A stretch of DNA of 64,000 nt from Aneurinibacillus aneurinilyticus ATCC 12856 (GCF_000466385.1 NZ_KE952812.1:1-64000); one strand, 5' to 3'; shown: positions 22,640 to 29,871, numbered from the stretch's first letter. A program made the numbers and translations. Notes: generated by a model not told the origin, from the sequence alone.

Positions 22640-22823
22640 GTAAAATCCCTCCAATACTAATTTATTGCTTAAACGCTTGTTCGCTTTTTTGTGCTAAAGC
22701 AACCTAATTAAGAATACAAGATTAATAGTTTGTTTGTAAAGTATTGTTTGTTTTTGCACAATTAAAAAGTACGCTATAATGGACGAAGATCAAAAGCCAA
22801 ACAATGTAAATGGGGATGAGAGT

Positions 22824-23480
22824 ATGGAACATAATGCGGTGCAGTGGGATGTGAAGAATCAGCAGTTGCTGTCCGAAGTCTGTCGGTGCTGTCCCGATTC
22901 ACACTTTGAGCGGCGTTCGAAAGAACTGCCCCATATCGGCTGCTGTGCATATGAACCGGTGTTTACTTTATTTGAGGTATATAAAATGATTGCAGCAGAA
23001 AAGACGGAATTCTTTTTAGAGGTGCTGTACCGCAATCCGCGTAATACAATCCACGATTACGAAATTGTGGCAGGCGCATTCATTCACCCGCTATTTTATC
23101 AACGGGATTCTACATCATTGGAATCTCCGGCAGAGCGGTATGACAAGCTGCGTCAATCGCCACATACTGTATATAAGGCAGTGGATGAACGATTAGCATA
23201 TGCAGTTTGCCAATTCTTCATCGACGGTAAAGGATGCGGACTTAACGCCAGCTTTAAAACAAGCATATGCCGTTCTTTTATATGCGGGGCGATTGAAGAG
23301 AAGCTTTCAGGAGATGAACGGGAGTGGTTAGGCAAGAGACAGCGAGCCATTCGTGATGAAGCAGAACCGTTTCATCGCAAGTACAAGACCGTTTTTCATG
23401 AAAGAGGATGGACGCTTCCGAACAATATTGAAGAAATCATTGTCTATTTTGAGCAGCTGAGCAGAAAACAAGCGGAGTAA
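22824..23480 (+). CDS. Cys-rich protein, YkgJ-like metal-binding candidate
   Basis: A 218-residue protein with nine Cys: 20, 22, 23 (E-V-C-R-C-C), 40, 41 (I-G-C-C), then 129, 138, 149 and 154 (V-C-Q-F-F-I-D-G-K-G-C, S-I-C-R-S-F-I-C). The order resembles the YkgJ/UPF0153 proteins, in which a Cys cluster near the start pairs with a later C-R-x-F-x-C. That family is predicted to bind zinc or iron-sulfur. The start at 22824 follows GGGGATGAGAGT; an earlier in-frame ATG at 22779 has no ribosome site. No partner is adjacent. I cannot assign a function. Confidence 0.55.
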   Translation: MEHNAVQWDVKNQQLLSEVCRCCPDSHFERRSKELPHIGCCAYEPVFTLFEVYKMIAAEKTEFFLEVLYRNPRNTIHDYEIVAGAFIHPLFYQRDSTSLESPAERYDKLRQSPHTVYKAVDERLAYAVCQFFIDGKGCGLNASFKTSICRSFICGAIEEKLSGDEREWLGKRQRAIRDEAEPFHRKYKTVFHERGWTLPNNIEEIIVYFEQLSRKQAE

Positions 23481-23568: not shown

Positions 23569-24096
23569 TTACTCAATGATACGTCTTGCTGTTACATAGT
23601 TTTTTTGATGCCAGGAGCTGTTCAGATTACTGATGGTAATGTCTGCTTGCGAGTTTGCCATGTGTAATACTTTTCCATTGCCAATATACATGCTTACATG
23701 TGTAATATCCGATTTATCTTGTTTGGTGCTGTAGAAGATAAGATCCCCTTTTTGGAGATTGCTTTTCGGCACGTAGCTGCCCAGCTTTACCTGACGGTCA
23801 TCGTCGCGTGTATGAATGTCAATGCCGTTTTTTTGGAAGATATAATACATGAATTGCGAACAATCCATATATTTCCCAGGCTGATAGTTGTGGCTGTAAT
23901 GCGCTATGCCCTCTAAGCCTTTACCGGTGCGGATGATATTATCAATAACGTCAGTTTTGTTCGGTACGTTTACTGTTTGACCGAATTTTGCGGAAACGGA
24001 TGCGGCATCGGCTTGTCCCGGAATAACAGTCAATCCCCCAAATAGCAAGCATCCTACCAACAATCCCCCAGCAAGTGTTTTAGTGCTTTTCTTCAC
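23569..24096 (-). CDS. Secreted NlpC/P60 peptidoglycan endopeptidase
   Basis: A 175-residue protein: signal peptide (about 1-32, ending Q-A-D-A-A-S), then an NlpC/P60 domain. The catalytic Cys is in M-D-C-S-Q-F-M-Y-Y-I-F, the His in D-I-T-H-V-S-M-Y-I-G and the third residue in V-L-H-M-A-N. Such enzymes cut D-Glu-diaminopimelate links in the wall. No LysM or SH3 domain is present. It lies directly behind a c-di-AMP riboswitch, known to regulate wall hydrolases and potassium uptake, so expression should fall when c-di-AMP is high. Confidence 0.9.
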   Translation of the reverse strand: MKKSTKTLAGGLLVGCLLFGGLTVIPGQADAASVSAKFGQTVNVPNKTDVIDNIIRTGKGLEGIAHYSHNYQPGKYMDCSQFMYYIFQKNGIDIHTRDDDRQVKLGSYVPKSNLQKGDLIFYSTKQDKSDITHVSMYIGNGKVLHMANSQADITISNLNSSWHQKNYVTARRIIE

Positions 24097-24340: not shown

Positions 24341-24373
24341 AGCCCCTGTTCGGTAAGAAAACGAACAGGGGCT
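24341..24373 (-). terminator. Strong hairpin at the 3' end of the YheC/YheD cluster
   Basis: AGCCCCTGTTCG (24341-24352) pairs perfectly with CGAACAGGGGCT (24362-24373). On the minus strand it is followed by TATGACTTTTT, a weak T-run. It lies between the cluster and the riboswitch. Confidence 0.65.
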
Positions 24374-24399: not shown

Positions 24400-25488
24400 T
24401 TAGTGATGGGAGTAAAGATGGGCTGCGGCGACGCGAATGGGCATTTCGATGGCGGTTTGATACGCATCGGTTTGCCCAGCCAGACGGAACAGCTCACGGT
24501 TTGGTTTTGTATTTACCTCAATAATCCAAACTCGGCCTTTCGTATCAATACCGATATCAATGCCAAATTCTATGAAATTGCCGAATTTTGATTCGATATA
24601 TCGGGGGAGAATCAGGCTAATCCGTTCAATATCTGCAATAATATGTTCCTTTTCCTTTGCGGAAAATCGATGATGAAGTAGCTCTTCAAGCTCAATGGCC
24701 TGACCTCCGCTTTGCAGATTGGAAGTGACCAATGCCTCTGGCGATTTCTTACCTATCATGCCTGTAATGTGCCATTCGTTTTGCTCGTTTTTCTGGACAA
24801 GTACACGGCTATCACAAATGCTGTTAGGTAAGAGGGTAAGCGTGAGTCCTTGCTGTATAATGAAAGAGCGTCCTTGCTTTTGGCACCATAGTAGAAGAAA
24901 GCGTTCGGCCGCAGATAGGGAAGAAATGGAATTATGGATGACACAGCCCTGCCGGTCCCGCCCGATTATTTCGAGCCTGTTCTTCTCACGGCGAATACGC
25001 AGAATGCCTTTGCCTCCAGAGCCATTTACCGGCTTGACGTAGAGAATTGGATACTTTTTAATCATTTTTGCCAGAATGCCTTGTCGCATCGGGGCTGTAT
25101 CTGGAAGGTAGGGAACAAGCTCTGAATTGCGGCTAAAGAAGCAGTGAGCATTCCATTTATGCGCGAAACGATCGTTTAAGTAGCGTAATCGGCTTACTTT
25201 TCTGTATGCCGCATATTTTTTAAATGATTCAGGTGTCATATTGCTAAAGCGATCATAAACGATATCGGGCAACCGTGTTTTTCGCTGTTGCCATGTTTTC
25301 ATTTCACTATTATAGATAAATCCGTTCACAATTCCTTTTTCCTCACGAATATCAGAAGGGGAATAGACAACAAGCTTACAGCCATACGTTTCAGCGACCA
25401 TAGCTAGACTGGTAAGGTATGTTTTCCCCGCGATAAAAGCGCCTCTGCGGTGTGTTAAAACTCCGATAAGCGGTTGATTTATAGTCAT
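24400..25488 (-). CDS. yheC: YheC/YheD-family ATP-grasp protein (YheC-like)
   Basis: A 362-residue protein. The N-terminal domain begins P-L-I-G-V-L-T-H-R-R-G. The ATP-grasp part has Y-V-K-P-V-N-G-S-G-G-K-G-I (Lys and glycine loop), F-I-I-Q-Q-G and the metal site G-I-D-I-G-I-D-T-K-G-R-V-W-I-I-E-V-N-T-K-P. Family members in Bacillus are made during sporulation and found around the forespore or coat. Their substrate is unknown; the ATP-grasp fold suggests carboxylate-amine ligation. This is the last gene of the cluster; its ATG overlaps the GNAT stop. Confidence 0.85.
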   Translation of the reverse strand: MTINQPLIGVLTHRRGAFIAGKTYLTSLAMVAETYGCKLVVYSPSDIREEKGIVNGFIYNSEMKTWQQRKTRLPDIVYDRFSNMTPESFKKYAAYRKVSRLRYLNDRFAHKWNAHCFFSRNSELVPYLPDTAPMRQGILAKMIKKYPILYVKPVNGSGGKGILRIRREKNRLEIIGRDRQGCVIHNSISSLSAAERFLLLWCQKQGRSFIIQQGLTLTLLPNSICDSRVLVQKNEQNEWHITGMIGKKSPEALVTSNLQSGGQAIELEELLHHRFSAKEKEHIIADIERISLILPRYIESKFGNFIEFGIDIGIDTKGRVWIIEVNTKPNRELFRLAGQTDAYQTAIEMPIRVAAAHLYSHH

Positions 25489-25949
25489 AGTCTCTCCACA
25501 TCATCTTTGCTCCAGTCTCCAGCTGCAAGCCACAATGTCGGTTTTCCGGTGACACCTCGTATACAAGAAAAAGCGACCATGCGTGCTGCAAAGCATGTTT
25601 TGAGGCTGGGCATATTATCTGCTGCAACACGGGCATACAGCTTGCCGAGCCGATGGATTGCTTCTTCGGTTAGTGTTTTGCCGATTTGCTGCGTTCGTGC
25701 CTTTGGGTGAACAACGAGAAAAGATTCTCGTATTCCGTATTTGGCTACAGCGAGAAACCCGAGCAATTTTTTGCTGTGTACATATGCAAGAAGCAGGGTG
25801 CCTTCCTGGTTGATGTCAACTTCAGGCATTTCCTGGACCCAGCGAATAGCCTTTGCAGTGATGCGCCGATCTCCGTGTGTTTTACTAAACCTGATTAATT
25901 TTTCTCTCGCGCGGCTGAACGTATCGGGCGAGAACGCATAGACGGGCAT
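25485..25949 (-). CDS. GNAT-family acetyltransferase
   Basis: A 154-residue protein. The central strand F-L-V-V-H-P-K-A-R-T-Q-Q-I-G-K-T-L-T-E-E-A-I carries the R/Q-x-x-G-x acetyl-CoA loop of motif A, preceded by L-L-A-Y-V-H-S-K-K-L-L-G-F-L. The start (M-P-V-Y-A-F-S-P) follows TAGGAGAATCTTGAG and lies one base past the preceding stop. It is embedded between two ATP-grasp genes and translationally linked to both, so it probably works in the same pathway. Substrate unknown. Confidence 0.75.
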   Translation of the reverse strand: MPVYAFSPDTFSRAREKLIRFSKTHGDRRITAKAIRWVQEMPEVDINQEGTLLLAYVHSKKLLGFLAVAKYGIRESFLVVHPKARTQQIGKTLTEEAIHRLGKLYARVAADNMPSLKTCFAARMVAFSCIRGVTGKPTLWLAAGDWSKDDVERL

Positions 25950-25950
25950 C

Positions 25951-27258
25951 TCAAGATTCTCCTACCTCGATAAATTTTGCCTTATGTTGAGCATATTCTA
26001 CAATGCGCTGCAATGATAGCTTGCGGATATGCGGTTCATCGAATTTGCCCGGTTTGGCATTTGCTTCGATAAACCAGATGTTCATATTTTTGTCAATTCC
26101 GATATCCATGGATACTTCACCGAGTGTTTGCCATTCTTTCTCCAGTGAACGGGCAATGCGCAAAGCCATACGGCGAACCGATGTAAGCAGATGGCGAGGC
26201 GCAATATGTGGGAATGCAGCCATAAGAATGTCTTCAGGCGGCTGAATGGAGCCGCCGCGCGGGACATGGGTCGTAATCTTGCCTGCCCCTGCTAACCGAA
26301 TGCCTGCCCCTGTTACCTCCCATTCGCCGCGTCCATTTTTCTGCGCGAGAAGGCGAACATCGAATAGCTTATTGTCAAAGGTCGCCAAATCAATTCCTTG
26401 TTGAATGACGTAATTTTGTTTAATTAGGGGAGCAAGATATGTCCATACCTCCCCTTTAGAGGAGAAACGTTTGCTTACCGTATCATCTTGTTCCTGATAT
26501 TGCACAAGATAGTCGCCATTGGTTATTTTTTGTACGCGGTAAATACCTTTACCGGCCATGCCGTTGACTGGTTTGATGTATACAAACGAATAGGAAGACA
26601 GCATGTGATAGAGCTGAGCTTTGGATGTAAACGTAACGGTTTGGGGAAGATAGGGCGTAATGTCAGGATCGCGTTGTAGTGCGGCATATAATTGTTGTTT
26701 ATTAAAAAACTGTGGATTGTACAAAGTAAGATTACGCATAGTTGATAGTTGCTCGAGCGCGGCTTTGACATGTGCTTGCTCTTCAAACATACGGTTGGGG
26801 ATGCGATTGTACAAAACGTGCGGTAACGGCAGTCTTTCTTTAATCCATTTCTTTTCTTTGGAATAAAACAGATAGCCTTGTACGGTTTTTGATTTCCAAT
26901 CGATATTTTCTATTGGTACGACATAGACAAAAGCCCCTTTTTTCCTTCCAGTTTCGATAATGTCGATAAAATTGCTTTGAACCCCGCGGAATCGTCCGCC
27001 TCCAGCTACGGTTAGGATGCCAATAAGCGGTCCTATCGTATAACGATTTTTCTGTGAACGAATGCGTATTTTTGCCTTTATAGTGTGAGGACTGGGTCGT
27101 TTATGCGTTATGAGAAGGTCTTTTCTCCAGCTTCCGAACTGAATACGGAGTCTTTTACGTATTAACAGAGCGCGAGGTGAATTTTTCGCAGAGATGTGAA
27201 GACGCCATGTTCGCCTTAAAGGGTGGATCGATACCCATCCTGTCGCCAGCCTACTCAT
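25951..27258 (-). CDS. yheD: YheC/YheD-family ATP-grasp protein (YheD-like)
   Basis: A 435-residue protein. An extra N-terminal domain of about 70 residues is rich in Arg and Lys. After it come R-Y-T-I-G-P-L-I-G-I-L-T, the loop Y-I-K-P-V-N-G-M-A-G-K-G-I-Y, V-I-Q-Q-G-I-D-L-A, and the metal site S-M-D-I-G-I-D-K-N-M-N-I-W-F-I-E-A-N-A-K-P. The start overlaps the previous stop by four bases (ATGA) and depends on coupling, as the ribosome site is weak. Confidence 0.85.
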   Translation of the reverse strand: MSRLATGWVSIHPLRRTWRLHISAKNSPRALLIRKRLRIQFGSWRKDLLITHKRPSPHTIKAKIRIRSQKNRYTIGPLIGILTVAGGGRFRGVQSNFIDIIETGRKKGAFVYVVPIENIDWKSKTVQGYLFYSKEKKWIKERLPLPHVLYNRIPNRMFEEQAHVKAALEQLSTMRNLTLYNPQFFNKQQLYAALQRDPDITPYLPQTVTFTSKAQLYHMLSSYSFVYIKPVNGMAGKGIYRVQKITNGDYLVQYQEQDDTVSKRFSSKGEVWTYLAPLIKQNYVIQQGIDLATFDNKLFDVRLLAQKNGRGEWEVTGAGIRLAGAGKITTHVPRGGSIQPPEDILMAAFPHIAPRHLLTSVRRMALRIARSLEKEWQTLGEVSMDIGIDKNMNIWFIEANAKPGKFDEPHIRKLSLQRIVEYAQHKAKFIEVGES

Positions 27259-28355
27259 GGGGTGGCCGTCCCTTTACGATTTTGTACCAGATAGTATGCA
27301 TAGCGCAATGGATTAAGCTGTACATCGCGTCGGTATTTCCCATTTTCAATCTTCCTAAAAGATGCGCGTCCCGGTTTAGAATTTACCTCGATAAGCCACA
27401 CTCTTCCTGACAGGTCGATACCGATATCGATGCCAAGTTCAACGAGCCGACCATGTCGGCTTTCCAGGAACGGTGGCAGTTCCTTGACAATAAAGTCGAT
27501 TTCCCGATGAATTTGTAACAGCTGCTCTTCGCTAAAATATTGCCGCAGAAATGGTTCGTATGTGTGCGCTTTGCCACCGCCGCATAGGTTTGATGTAAGT
27601 CCATCAACCGCTCCCGCTCGAACGGCGCGTCCGGTCTCTCCCCACTCGCCATTGCCTCCCTTTTGAACAAGCACGCGGATATCAAATGGTACACCCTCAG
27701 GTGTGTGAAGCTCCAGATACGGTTGGGCAATCATCTTGACTTTGCACTGATTCTGAAGCCAAAACAGGAGCGAGGAGCGGTTAGAAAACTTTCTATGGAA
27801 GACCTTGTTTTTGAAATCACGTCCATCGACACGATGAATGTTGTTTTTGGATGTAACTTTCATCACACCGATACCGAGTGAATTGCGCATTGGCTTAACG
27901 ATGACTGCATCATACACGTTAAGCATGTTCTTAATCACCTGCATTGAGGTGACTGGTTCGGTAGGCGGCATATGGGCAGCAATTCCCGGGTGCTGAATGA
28001 GGTGGTTATGATTTTTAAGCTTGTCGCCCAACACATGGCCAAGAAATGTAATAGAAGGCTGGGATTTTAATTTTTTGATTTGTGTTTCATATTTTTTACG
28101 GTTTGATAATCGGTCATATATGAGCGTAGGGAATGGCATACGGGTTTTGACCCATTTTTTCTCGGTTGTATAGCGGTACGCGATAACCGATTGAGTGGCA
28201 AAATTAATATGAGTGGGCAAAATTACATAGACGGGCAGCCCGATACGCCTTCCTGCTTGAGTCAGGTATGCGTAGAATGTTTTGTCGGGAAACGGGAGAT
28301 ATTTTGTACTCGGAGTGGCCAGGATGCCCAGATAGCCCGTTGCCTTTTTTTTCAT
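27255..28355 (-). CDS. yheC: YheC/YheD-family ATP-grasp protein (YheC-like)
   Basis: A 366-residue protein starting M-K-K-K-A-T-G-Y-L-G-I-L-A. ATP-grasp marks are V-I-V-K-P-M-R-N-S-L-G-I-G-V and G-I-D-I-G-I-D-L-S-G-R-V-W-L-I-E-V-N-S-K-P. The loop lacks one glycine of the G-S-G-G-K-G form (N-S-L-G-I-G). The ATG at 28355 is preferred: another ATG at 28364 is only two bases from AGGAGG. Confidence 0.85.
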   Translation of the reverse strand: MKKKATGYLGILATPSTKYLPFPDKTFYAYLTQAGRRIGLPVYVILPTHINFATQSVIAYRYTTEKKWVKTRMPFPTLIYDRLSNRKKYETQIKKLKSQPSITFLGHVLGDKLKNHNHLIQHPGIAAHMPPTEPVTSMQVIKNMLNVYDAVIVKPMRNSLGIGVMKVTSKNNIHRVDGRDFKNKVFHRKFSNRSSLLFWLQNQCKVKMIAQPYLELHTPEGVPFDIRVLVQKGGNGEWGETGRAVRAGAVDGLTSNLCGGGKAHTYEPFLRQYFSEEQLLQIHREIDFIVKELPPFLESRHGRLVELGIDIGIDLSGRVWLIEVNSKPGRASFRKIENGKYRRDVQLNPLRYAYYLVQNRKGTATP

Positions 28356-28360
28356 GACGA

Positions 28361-29788
28361 TCATTTCCTCCTTGTGCGACGCTTAGCTTGTGGCGCCTTC
28401 TTTGGCGCCGGTGAGATGAATCCGCTACGATAAAAACAATAATCGATCAACCGAACAACAGAAGGTCGCGGTCCTTTGCCGACACTTGCCACGGAGTTAT
28501 TTGTCTTGGAAGGCTTCGAATTGATTTCGATCATCCATACTTTTCCTTTTTTATCAACGCCTAAATCAATGCCGAGTTCGGCGTAATGTCCTTCTGTGCA
28601 TTGTTCGAACAATTGTGCAATCAAAAGCGCATGCTGCCTGACGGAAGCGCCGATGGACTTGCACGTTATTGGCGGGAATCCAGCCGCTGCTAACGCAGAT
28701 CCAAGGGACAGTATCGTACCCCCGTGTGCGACATTGGAAACAATGCTGCTTGTCGGTGCACTTCGCCCAACGATGGATGTGATGCTCCATGTACCACGTT
28801 TATTTTTCTGGACGAGTGCACGAAAATCTACGATGCCTCCTCGCGCTTTGATGAGATGCAATCCTTGCTGCATTAAGTAAGGTTGGTTTTTCATACGTGA
28901 ACGTAACATCTGATGCAGCATATTAAACGATGGATAGCGGCGCGTAACGGTTCCGGTTAGTGAAGAGTATTGACAAAGATAGCCTTGCTTGCTTCGGACG
29001 AGACGGATAATGCCACGACCCAGGCTGCCGCTGGATGGTTTAAGATAAAGATATGGATACCTTTGCAGCATGGAGGAAAGAGATGCAGCTCCCATGTACA
29101 GTTCGGTGTAGGGAGAGAACGAGGCTGTCTCTGGCAGTAGGGACATACGTTGGTGAATGTGCCATTTATCAAGAAATTGTTCATTGAAGAAGAGTGAGCC
29201 TTTCTCTTTTAATATAGCTATTTTCTCTTGCGTCTCTTTTTTTTCTTCAATCCGGCGTGAACCAATACGATTGTAGACACATTGTGGAAGTGGAAACTTG
29301 TGTTTGGTCCACTGGTTATGGTGATATGTCCAGCCGTCTACCGTGTCATTTTCCGGTGAGATCTGTTCCAGAGTGAAAATAAAGCCGAGTCCGCCGTGTT
29401 TCCGACAGGTCTGCACCATTTCTCGACAGAAGTCGGTGATGCCGCCGAATGGCCCGTTTTCCGTAGGTGCCATTCGATAGATAAGAGCTCCAACAAGTGG
29501 ACCGATAATAAGTTTTCGTGTATTCGGATGAAAATGAAAGCCATACGTCATATTATTTTCTTCTAGTAGATGAAGACGACGTGCGAGAGATTCACGGATG
29601 CGAACTGTGGAAGCCGTGGCGCCAATCTCGAAATTTACGATCGCGGTCTGTAATCCATAAACGAATTCAAGCGTATGTGTGCCGAAGATGCCGTGTTTTT
29701 TAGCAAAGGCAGCCGGAAGTAACAAATCGACCGCAGCGGGAAGGGACGAATCGGCTATACGCTGAATTCGCATATGATGTTGTATCAT
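28361..29788 (-). CDS. yheD: YheC/YheD-family ATP-grasp protein (YheD-like, first gene)
   Basis: A 475-residue protein and the longest paralog. Residues 1-95 form an added domain with [11 protein letters not shown] and [11 protein letters not shown]. Then come [11 protein letters not shown], the loop [14 protein letters not shown] and the metal site [21 protein letters not shown]. The basic tail (K-R-R-T-R-R-K) is unusual. A ribosome site GGGGGAGCGAGCC precedes the ATG. It leads the operon; I see no certain promoter upstream and could not place a SigE or SigK site. Confidence 0.85.
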
Positions 29789-29871
29789 GGCTCGCTCCCC
29801 CTTTCCTGCATGCGTATATCATCCCTTCATCTTATGTGGAAGCCAAGGAGAGCGTGAGTGTTCTTGCCTAT

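Follow-up and report, generated by a model that had tools for sequence, protein, structure and literature searches.

An ancient, ordered cassette of YheC/YheD ATP-grasp ligases in Aneurinibacillus aneurinilyticus and its probable role in spore-coat modification

The window, a stretch of 64,000 nucleotides of the Aneurinibacillus aneurinilyticus ATCC 12856 genome, carries a five-gene cassette encoding four ATP-grasp proteins of the YheC/YheD family (YheCD) and one GNAT acetyltransferase. The cassette is an ancient, ordered set with the GNAT as an optional member. Its ligases probably carry out coat-directed amide ligation, joining an amino acid or a peptide onto coat material. As a general idea, spore-coat ligation had already been part of the original prediction; it is supported by the promoter, the linkage to CotE and the catalytic residues. 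The family itself is already known and so is a general prediction of spore-protein modification; the Pfam note on PF14398 predicts a role in spore-wall protein modification or biosynthesis. The literature searched contained no paper assigning a reaction to YheC/YheD and no report of the cassette or of its link to cotE.

Organisation and conservation of the cassette

The cluster runs from position 29788 to 24400 on the minus strand and consists of five open reading frames (ORFs; Table 1). Three pairs of neighbouring ORFs overlap by 4 bases (28361-28364, 27255-27258 and 25485-25488) and the only gap, a single base at 25950, separates the ORFs of gene D and the GNAT; the proposed tight coupling of the genes is borne out. 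The four large ORFs match PF14398 (YheC/YheD ATP-grasp) with 231-268 bits, the curated cut-off being 26.8 bits, and their E-values span 1e-68 to 1e-80. The GNAT scores 27.7 bits with PF13673 (cut-off 23.6) and 24.1 bits with PF00583 (cut-off 20.7). These ORFs and Pfam matches confirm the predicted content of four YheC/YheD proteins and a GNAT. Two more PF14398 genes are located on other contigs of the same genome. All four window ligases are very basic, with whole-protein net charges of +18 to +33. Of the two basic N-terminal domains that had been predicted, both exist as extensions (about 95 aa in gene A and about 76 aa in gene D), but only that of gene D is strongly basic, with a net charge of +19 in the first 75 aa as against +3 in the first 97 aa of gene A.

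Table 1. Features of the cassette and its borders
Feature	Position	Strand	Evidence
Gene A, first gene, YheD-type ATP-grasp ligase, 475 aa	28361-29788	-	PF14398 E 8e-70; ortholog group A
Gene A N-terminal domain, residues 1-95, predicted double-psi beta barrel	29504-29788	-	Model, Foldseek
Gene B, YheC-type ATP-grasp ligase, 369 aa, no N-terminal extension	27255-28364	-	PF14398 E 1e-68; ortholog group B
Gene D, YheD-type ATP-grasp ligase, 435 aa, basic N-terminal extension	25951-27258	-	PF14398 E 7e-80; ortholog group D
GNAT acetyltransferase, 154 aa, optional member	25485-25949	-	PF13673 and PF00583 above cut-off; orthologs in 28 loci; alignment
Gene C, last gene, YheC-type ATP-grasp ligase, 362 aa	24400-25488	-	PF14398 E 8e-71; ortholog group C
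Sigma-K-type promoter, CACG-N16-CATAAGATG	29828-29856	-	About 40 bases upstream of gene A ATG
Likely terminator, 12-bp hairpin and T-run, 3' of gene C	24341-24373	-	By eye

Conservation was assessed in 60 relatives; about 40 cluster regions were taken and a tree was built on 153 proteins. PF14398 is present in 48 of the 60, most of which have several copies. The window ligases fall into four ortholog groups, A, B, D and C, and the paralog phylogeny that had been recommended thus assigns each window copy to an ancient group; the groups were drawn without the B. subtilis YheC/YheD sequences. Elsewhere a fifth group, X, lies between B and D, which the family of the window is without. In about 15 families of Bacilli the order A-B-X-D-GNAT-C is found again, in full or lacking some members, the genes mostly overlapping or lying close together; intervals of about 1.1 kb on the locus map mostly represent PF14398 matches dropped by gene picking. 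Since the order recurs across so many families, the cluster is not a product of chance. It is kept together, and the scattering in close relatives that the original prediction had named as grounds for its rejection was not found. A scan of named genomes for gene A returned one locus, in Paenibacillus camelliae.

The GNAT is less constant. In two relatives (G003 and G010) the spacing between D and C leaves no room for it, in another (G009) neither the GNAT nor gene C was detected after D, and runs of the ligases with cotE do not contain the GNAT. Its absence from at least two relatives and from the cotE runs does not bear out the suggested acetyl capping, which amounts to a guess. The acetyl-CoA motif [R/Q]xxGx[G/A] has the consensus RxxGIG in the family and reads RTQQIG in the window protein.

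Several neighbouring and related genes were also noted. A 233-aa Cys-rich protein is encoded at 22779-23480 on the plus strand; it has no Pfam or NCBIfam match, and similar proteins were found in 14 loci, mostly just past gene C and convergent with it. A secreted NlpC/P60 peptidase (23569-24096, minus strand) adjoins the cassette, and similar proteins occur in 13 loci. Single genes of the YheC/YheD family are carried by many Priestia plasmids (e.g. Priestia megaterium NC_014031.1 and NC_010010.2) and also by plasmids of Staphylococcus epidermidis, a non-sporulating species. A short, divergent PF14398 protein of 263 aa (L057:6870-7661, contig C222 of genome G000) is encoded beside a subtilisin-like protease, an ABC transporter and a fragment of a SPASM-type protein, an arrangement reminiscent of a peptide-maturation cluster. 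As for other origins, the possibility of a defence system was rejected after no match was found in PADLOC, as was a phage origin, gene D being without a match in phage records and group A without a relative in viral contigs.

Catalytic residues, predicted fold and promoter

A residue alignment bears out the original prediction that the Lys/Gly loop and the E-x-N site are kept in all four paralogs; the other ATP/Mg residues (ATP-binding lysines and D/E/N metal ligands) are present in all four as well. Positions equivalent to K208, K250, Q307, D321, R323, D408, E421 and N423 of gene A are conserved throughout the five groups. Leaving out one truncated sequence, the single exception is a Gln-to-Met change in group B. 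Judged by these residues, kept in every group, the four ligases are apparently active, which supports the predicted ligase activity.

Structures were modelled for the window and L076 proteins, using shallow alignments of 9 and 4 rows. For gene A, the AlphaFold2 model (pLDDT 86.4) matches RimK with a Z-score of 21.8 over 275 residues (2.8 Å), followed by LysX/ArgX (Z 21), TTL (about 18) and TTLL6 (17.5), and also GshB. In a profile search of solved structures, TTLL7 ranks first (E 7e-4). According to the models, the window ligases thus have the fold and the pattern of ATP/Mg residues in common with RimK, LysX/ArgX and TTL/TTLL. They differ from these enzymes in the additional N-terminal domain of groups A, X and D and in not reaching the profile cut-offs: the best scores with the NCBIfam models of RimK-type glutamate ligases and glutathione synthases were about 12-20 bits, compared with cut-offs of 143-350 bits. 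The N-terminal extension of groups X and D is of gene A size or somewhat shorter, and groups B and C are without it. Modelled alone (pLDDT 81.5), the domain of gene A has a designed double-psi beta barrel as the top Foldseek match (E 0.009) and aligns with the p97 N-domain with Z 8.0 over 85 residues. It is likely, but not certain, to be a double-psi beta barrel, the scores being near a level that a merely common arrangement can also reach; a sequence search of this domain against the PDB returned nothing credible.

In 29 of 33 loci gene A is preceded by the pattern CAC-N16/17-CATANNNT[A/G], compared with a mean of 0.38 and a maximum of 4 in shuffled upstream regions and with 3 of 139 internal genes. 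It was written after sight of some upstream regions and follows the textbook sigma-K form. Sigma-K promoters have a two-block form (PMC517825). With such a promoter motif, the cassette is most likely a late, sigma-K-driven unit of the mother cell. Scans for sigma-70 promoters and terminators gave counts at or under the shuffle expectation; the hairpin after gene C, which has a loop of 9 bases, was missed by the terminator scan, whose loop limit is 8.

In B. subtilis, YheC and YheD belong to the same Pfam family (PF14398) as the window ligases and are encoded by mother-cell sporulation genes under sigma-E and SpoIIID (PMC517825). The window, unlike B. subtilis, has four cluster members with a GNAT and a sigma-K-type promoter.

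Linkage to cotE and a second amidoligase

The links to CotE and PF14395 come from outside the window, and the window cassette itself is not adjacent to cotE. PF14395 is the GS-like COOH-NH2 ligase. In five families (f8, f14, f19, f22 and f28), cotE, two to three YheCD genes, PF14395 and mostly more YheCD genes form a run on one strand; a sixth (f16) has the run cotE-YheCD-PF14395. In most other families PF14395 directly follows cotE and the YheCD cassette is located elsewhere. The window's genome has its PF14395 gene on another contig (C180, L080:8254-9699), beginning about 85 bases past the cotE stop codon and followed by mutS. PF14395 resembles YheCD in its predicted amide-bond chemistry and, in the six families, shares one run with YheCD genes and cotE, but it differs in fold.

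The three families of proteins also tend to occur together, in counts that ignore ancestry. Among the 60 relatives every genome with PF14395 also has PF14398 (44 of 44), and PF14398 is present in 47 of 52 genomes with CotE and in 1 of 8 without it; among 299 Bacilli, PF14395 was found in 159 of the 208 genomes with CotE and in 0 of the 91 lacking it. Exceptions among the 60 relatives are four genomes with YheCD and without PF14395, one (G058) with YheCD and without detected CotE, and five with CotE and without YheCD. Upstream of cotE, the sigma-E pattern was found 3 times, below the 4.9 expected by chance, and the sigma-K-type pattern in 18 of 57 cases. The spore association of the cassette assumed at the outset is supported by the promoter of gene A, this co-occurrence and the linkage to cotE in other families.

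Further observations concern PF14395 and cotE themselves. The N-terminal half of PF14395 (L080:9058-9699; L041:8799-9503) gives a weak profile match to group A; its reading as a degenerate ATP-grasp domain was set aside as a lead, the hhalign probability being only 26% with a weak match to MptN. An element of about 4 kb (L080:10129-14100 on contig C180, approximate) interrupts the cotE gene of the window's genome near codon 70-75; it encodes a chemotaxis receptor and a large serine recombinase of 526 aa. The sequence AACAACACAGA is present at both junctions of the element and once in the intact cotE of G003 and G005; G001, G004, G006 and G007 have cotE interrupted at the identical place, with orthologous recombinases of 62-76% identity. 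Judging by these sequences, the insertion looks like a skin-type intervening element.

Possible action on the spore coat

The enzymes are best explained as four different ATP-grasp amide ligases of the RimK/LysX/tubulin-ligase type. Each would use ATP to form an acyl-phosphate and then make an amide bond to an amino acid or peptide, and the set would work serially or in parallel on spore-coat material, with the coat scaffold CotE and its GS-like amidoligase PF14395 as the partner system. The logic resembles that of the amidoligase-GNAT clusters described by the Aravind group, where successive ligation by ATP-grasp amidoligases is followed by acyl capping (PMC4431377); the literature searched describes neither the A-B-X-D-GNAT-C order nor the sigma-K-type promoter nor the cotE-PF14395 link.

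A common origin of the copies by recent tandem duplication, which would leave redundant genes without special meaning, might be suggested by adjacent genes of one family on one strand. The tree of 153 proteins refutes it, since the window copies group with positional orthologs of other families and not with their neighbours, and with only about 25-30% identity between copies the idea can be practically dismissed. The ligases might instead be mainly structural coat components that retain the ATP-grasp fold, as would suit YheD, which is located at the spore surface and has a strong self-interaction (PMC7911427); a purely structural role, however, needs no ATP and Mg ligands, and these are kept in five groups despite great divergence, making this explanation improbable.

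Other alternatives concern the product. Synthesis in the mother cell of a small peptide, a capped metabolite or a free poly-amino acid, to be laid down in the coat, would accord with GshB and Ddl, ATP-grasp relatives that make small peptides and score near RimK, and ligase-GNAT clusters in other families have been so interpreted (PMC4431377). The set has no conserved transporter, aminotransferase or other enzyme of a pathway, though, and the linkage to cotE points toward a coat protein, so a small product appears rather unlikely. Still less can be said for ring formation in a small precursor peptide by graspetide-like ligases: the graspetide ligases 7mgv and 7drp are among the Foldseek matches, but the overlapping or nearly touching genes leave no space between them for a precursor gene, and reading of the flanks, as distinct from a systematic short-ORF search, revealed none. 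Although a precursor gene might lie elsewhere in the genome, this alternative is very improbable.

Coat-directed amide ligation leaves the acceptor to be considered. RimK, LysX/ArgX and TTL/TTLL extend the acidic ends of proteins by amino acids, which makes a parallel with the tail of CotE attractive. The mean net charge per 100 residues is +6.1 for YheCD proteins, compared with -0.5 for other conserved ORFs in the loci, and an acidic partner would suit such strongly basic ligases. In B. cereus, the C-terminal tail of CotE, which is disordered and acidic, controls meshwork formation through its charge (PMC11980541). A lysine among acidic residues of the tail was found in 53 of 59 ligase-bearing genomes and 1 of 26 others, and a characteristic acidic C-terminus in 44 of 59 and 0 of 26, respectively; these motifs were picked after looking, and the CotE tree shows just one change of ligase state. 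For the latter reason a claim of independent covariation with PF14395 was rejected, and the correlation counts as a lead and falls short of proof.

The CotE tail is the favoured single candidate for the direct acceptor, a tentative choice. A system resembling the tubulin code, in which the ATP-grasp ligases and the GS-like amidoligase would attach amino-acid branches or form isopeptide links at the acidic CotE C-terminal tail, is a more speculative analogy and rather doubtful; the sites would be acidic residues of the tail or its conserved lysine, and the additions would set how the coat meshwork is charged and cross-linked. The combined explanation, a sigma-K unit of ligases with the GNAT as a putative modifier, in which coat material is the target and the CotE tail the favoured acceptor, has somewhat less than an even chance of being right in full.

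The cassette and the linkage to cotE and the second amidoligase in other families provide a concrete candidate acceptor, a chemistry and a readout, the latter being a shift in the mass of the CotE tail and altered assembly of the meshwork. Additions or cross-links on the acidic tail of CotE would tune coat assembly, and, if this is true, the assembly of the spore coat would be controlled by a dedicated covalent protein modification.
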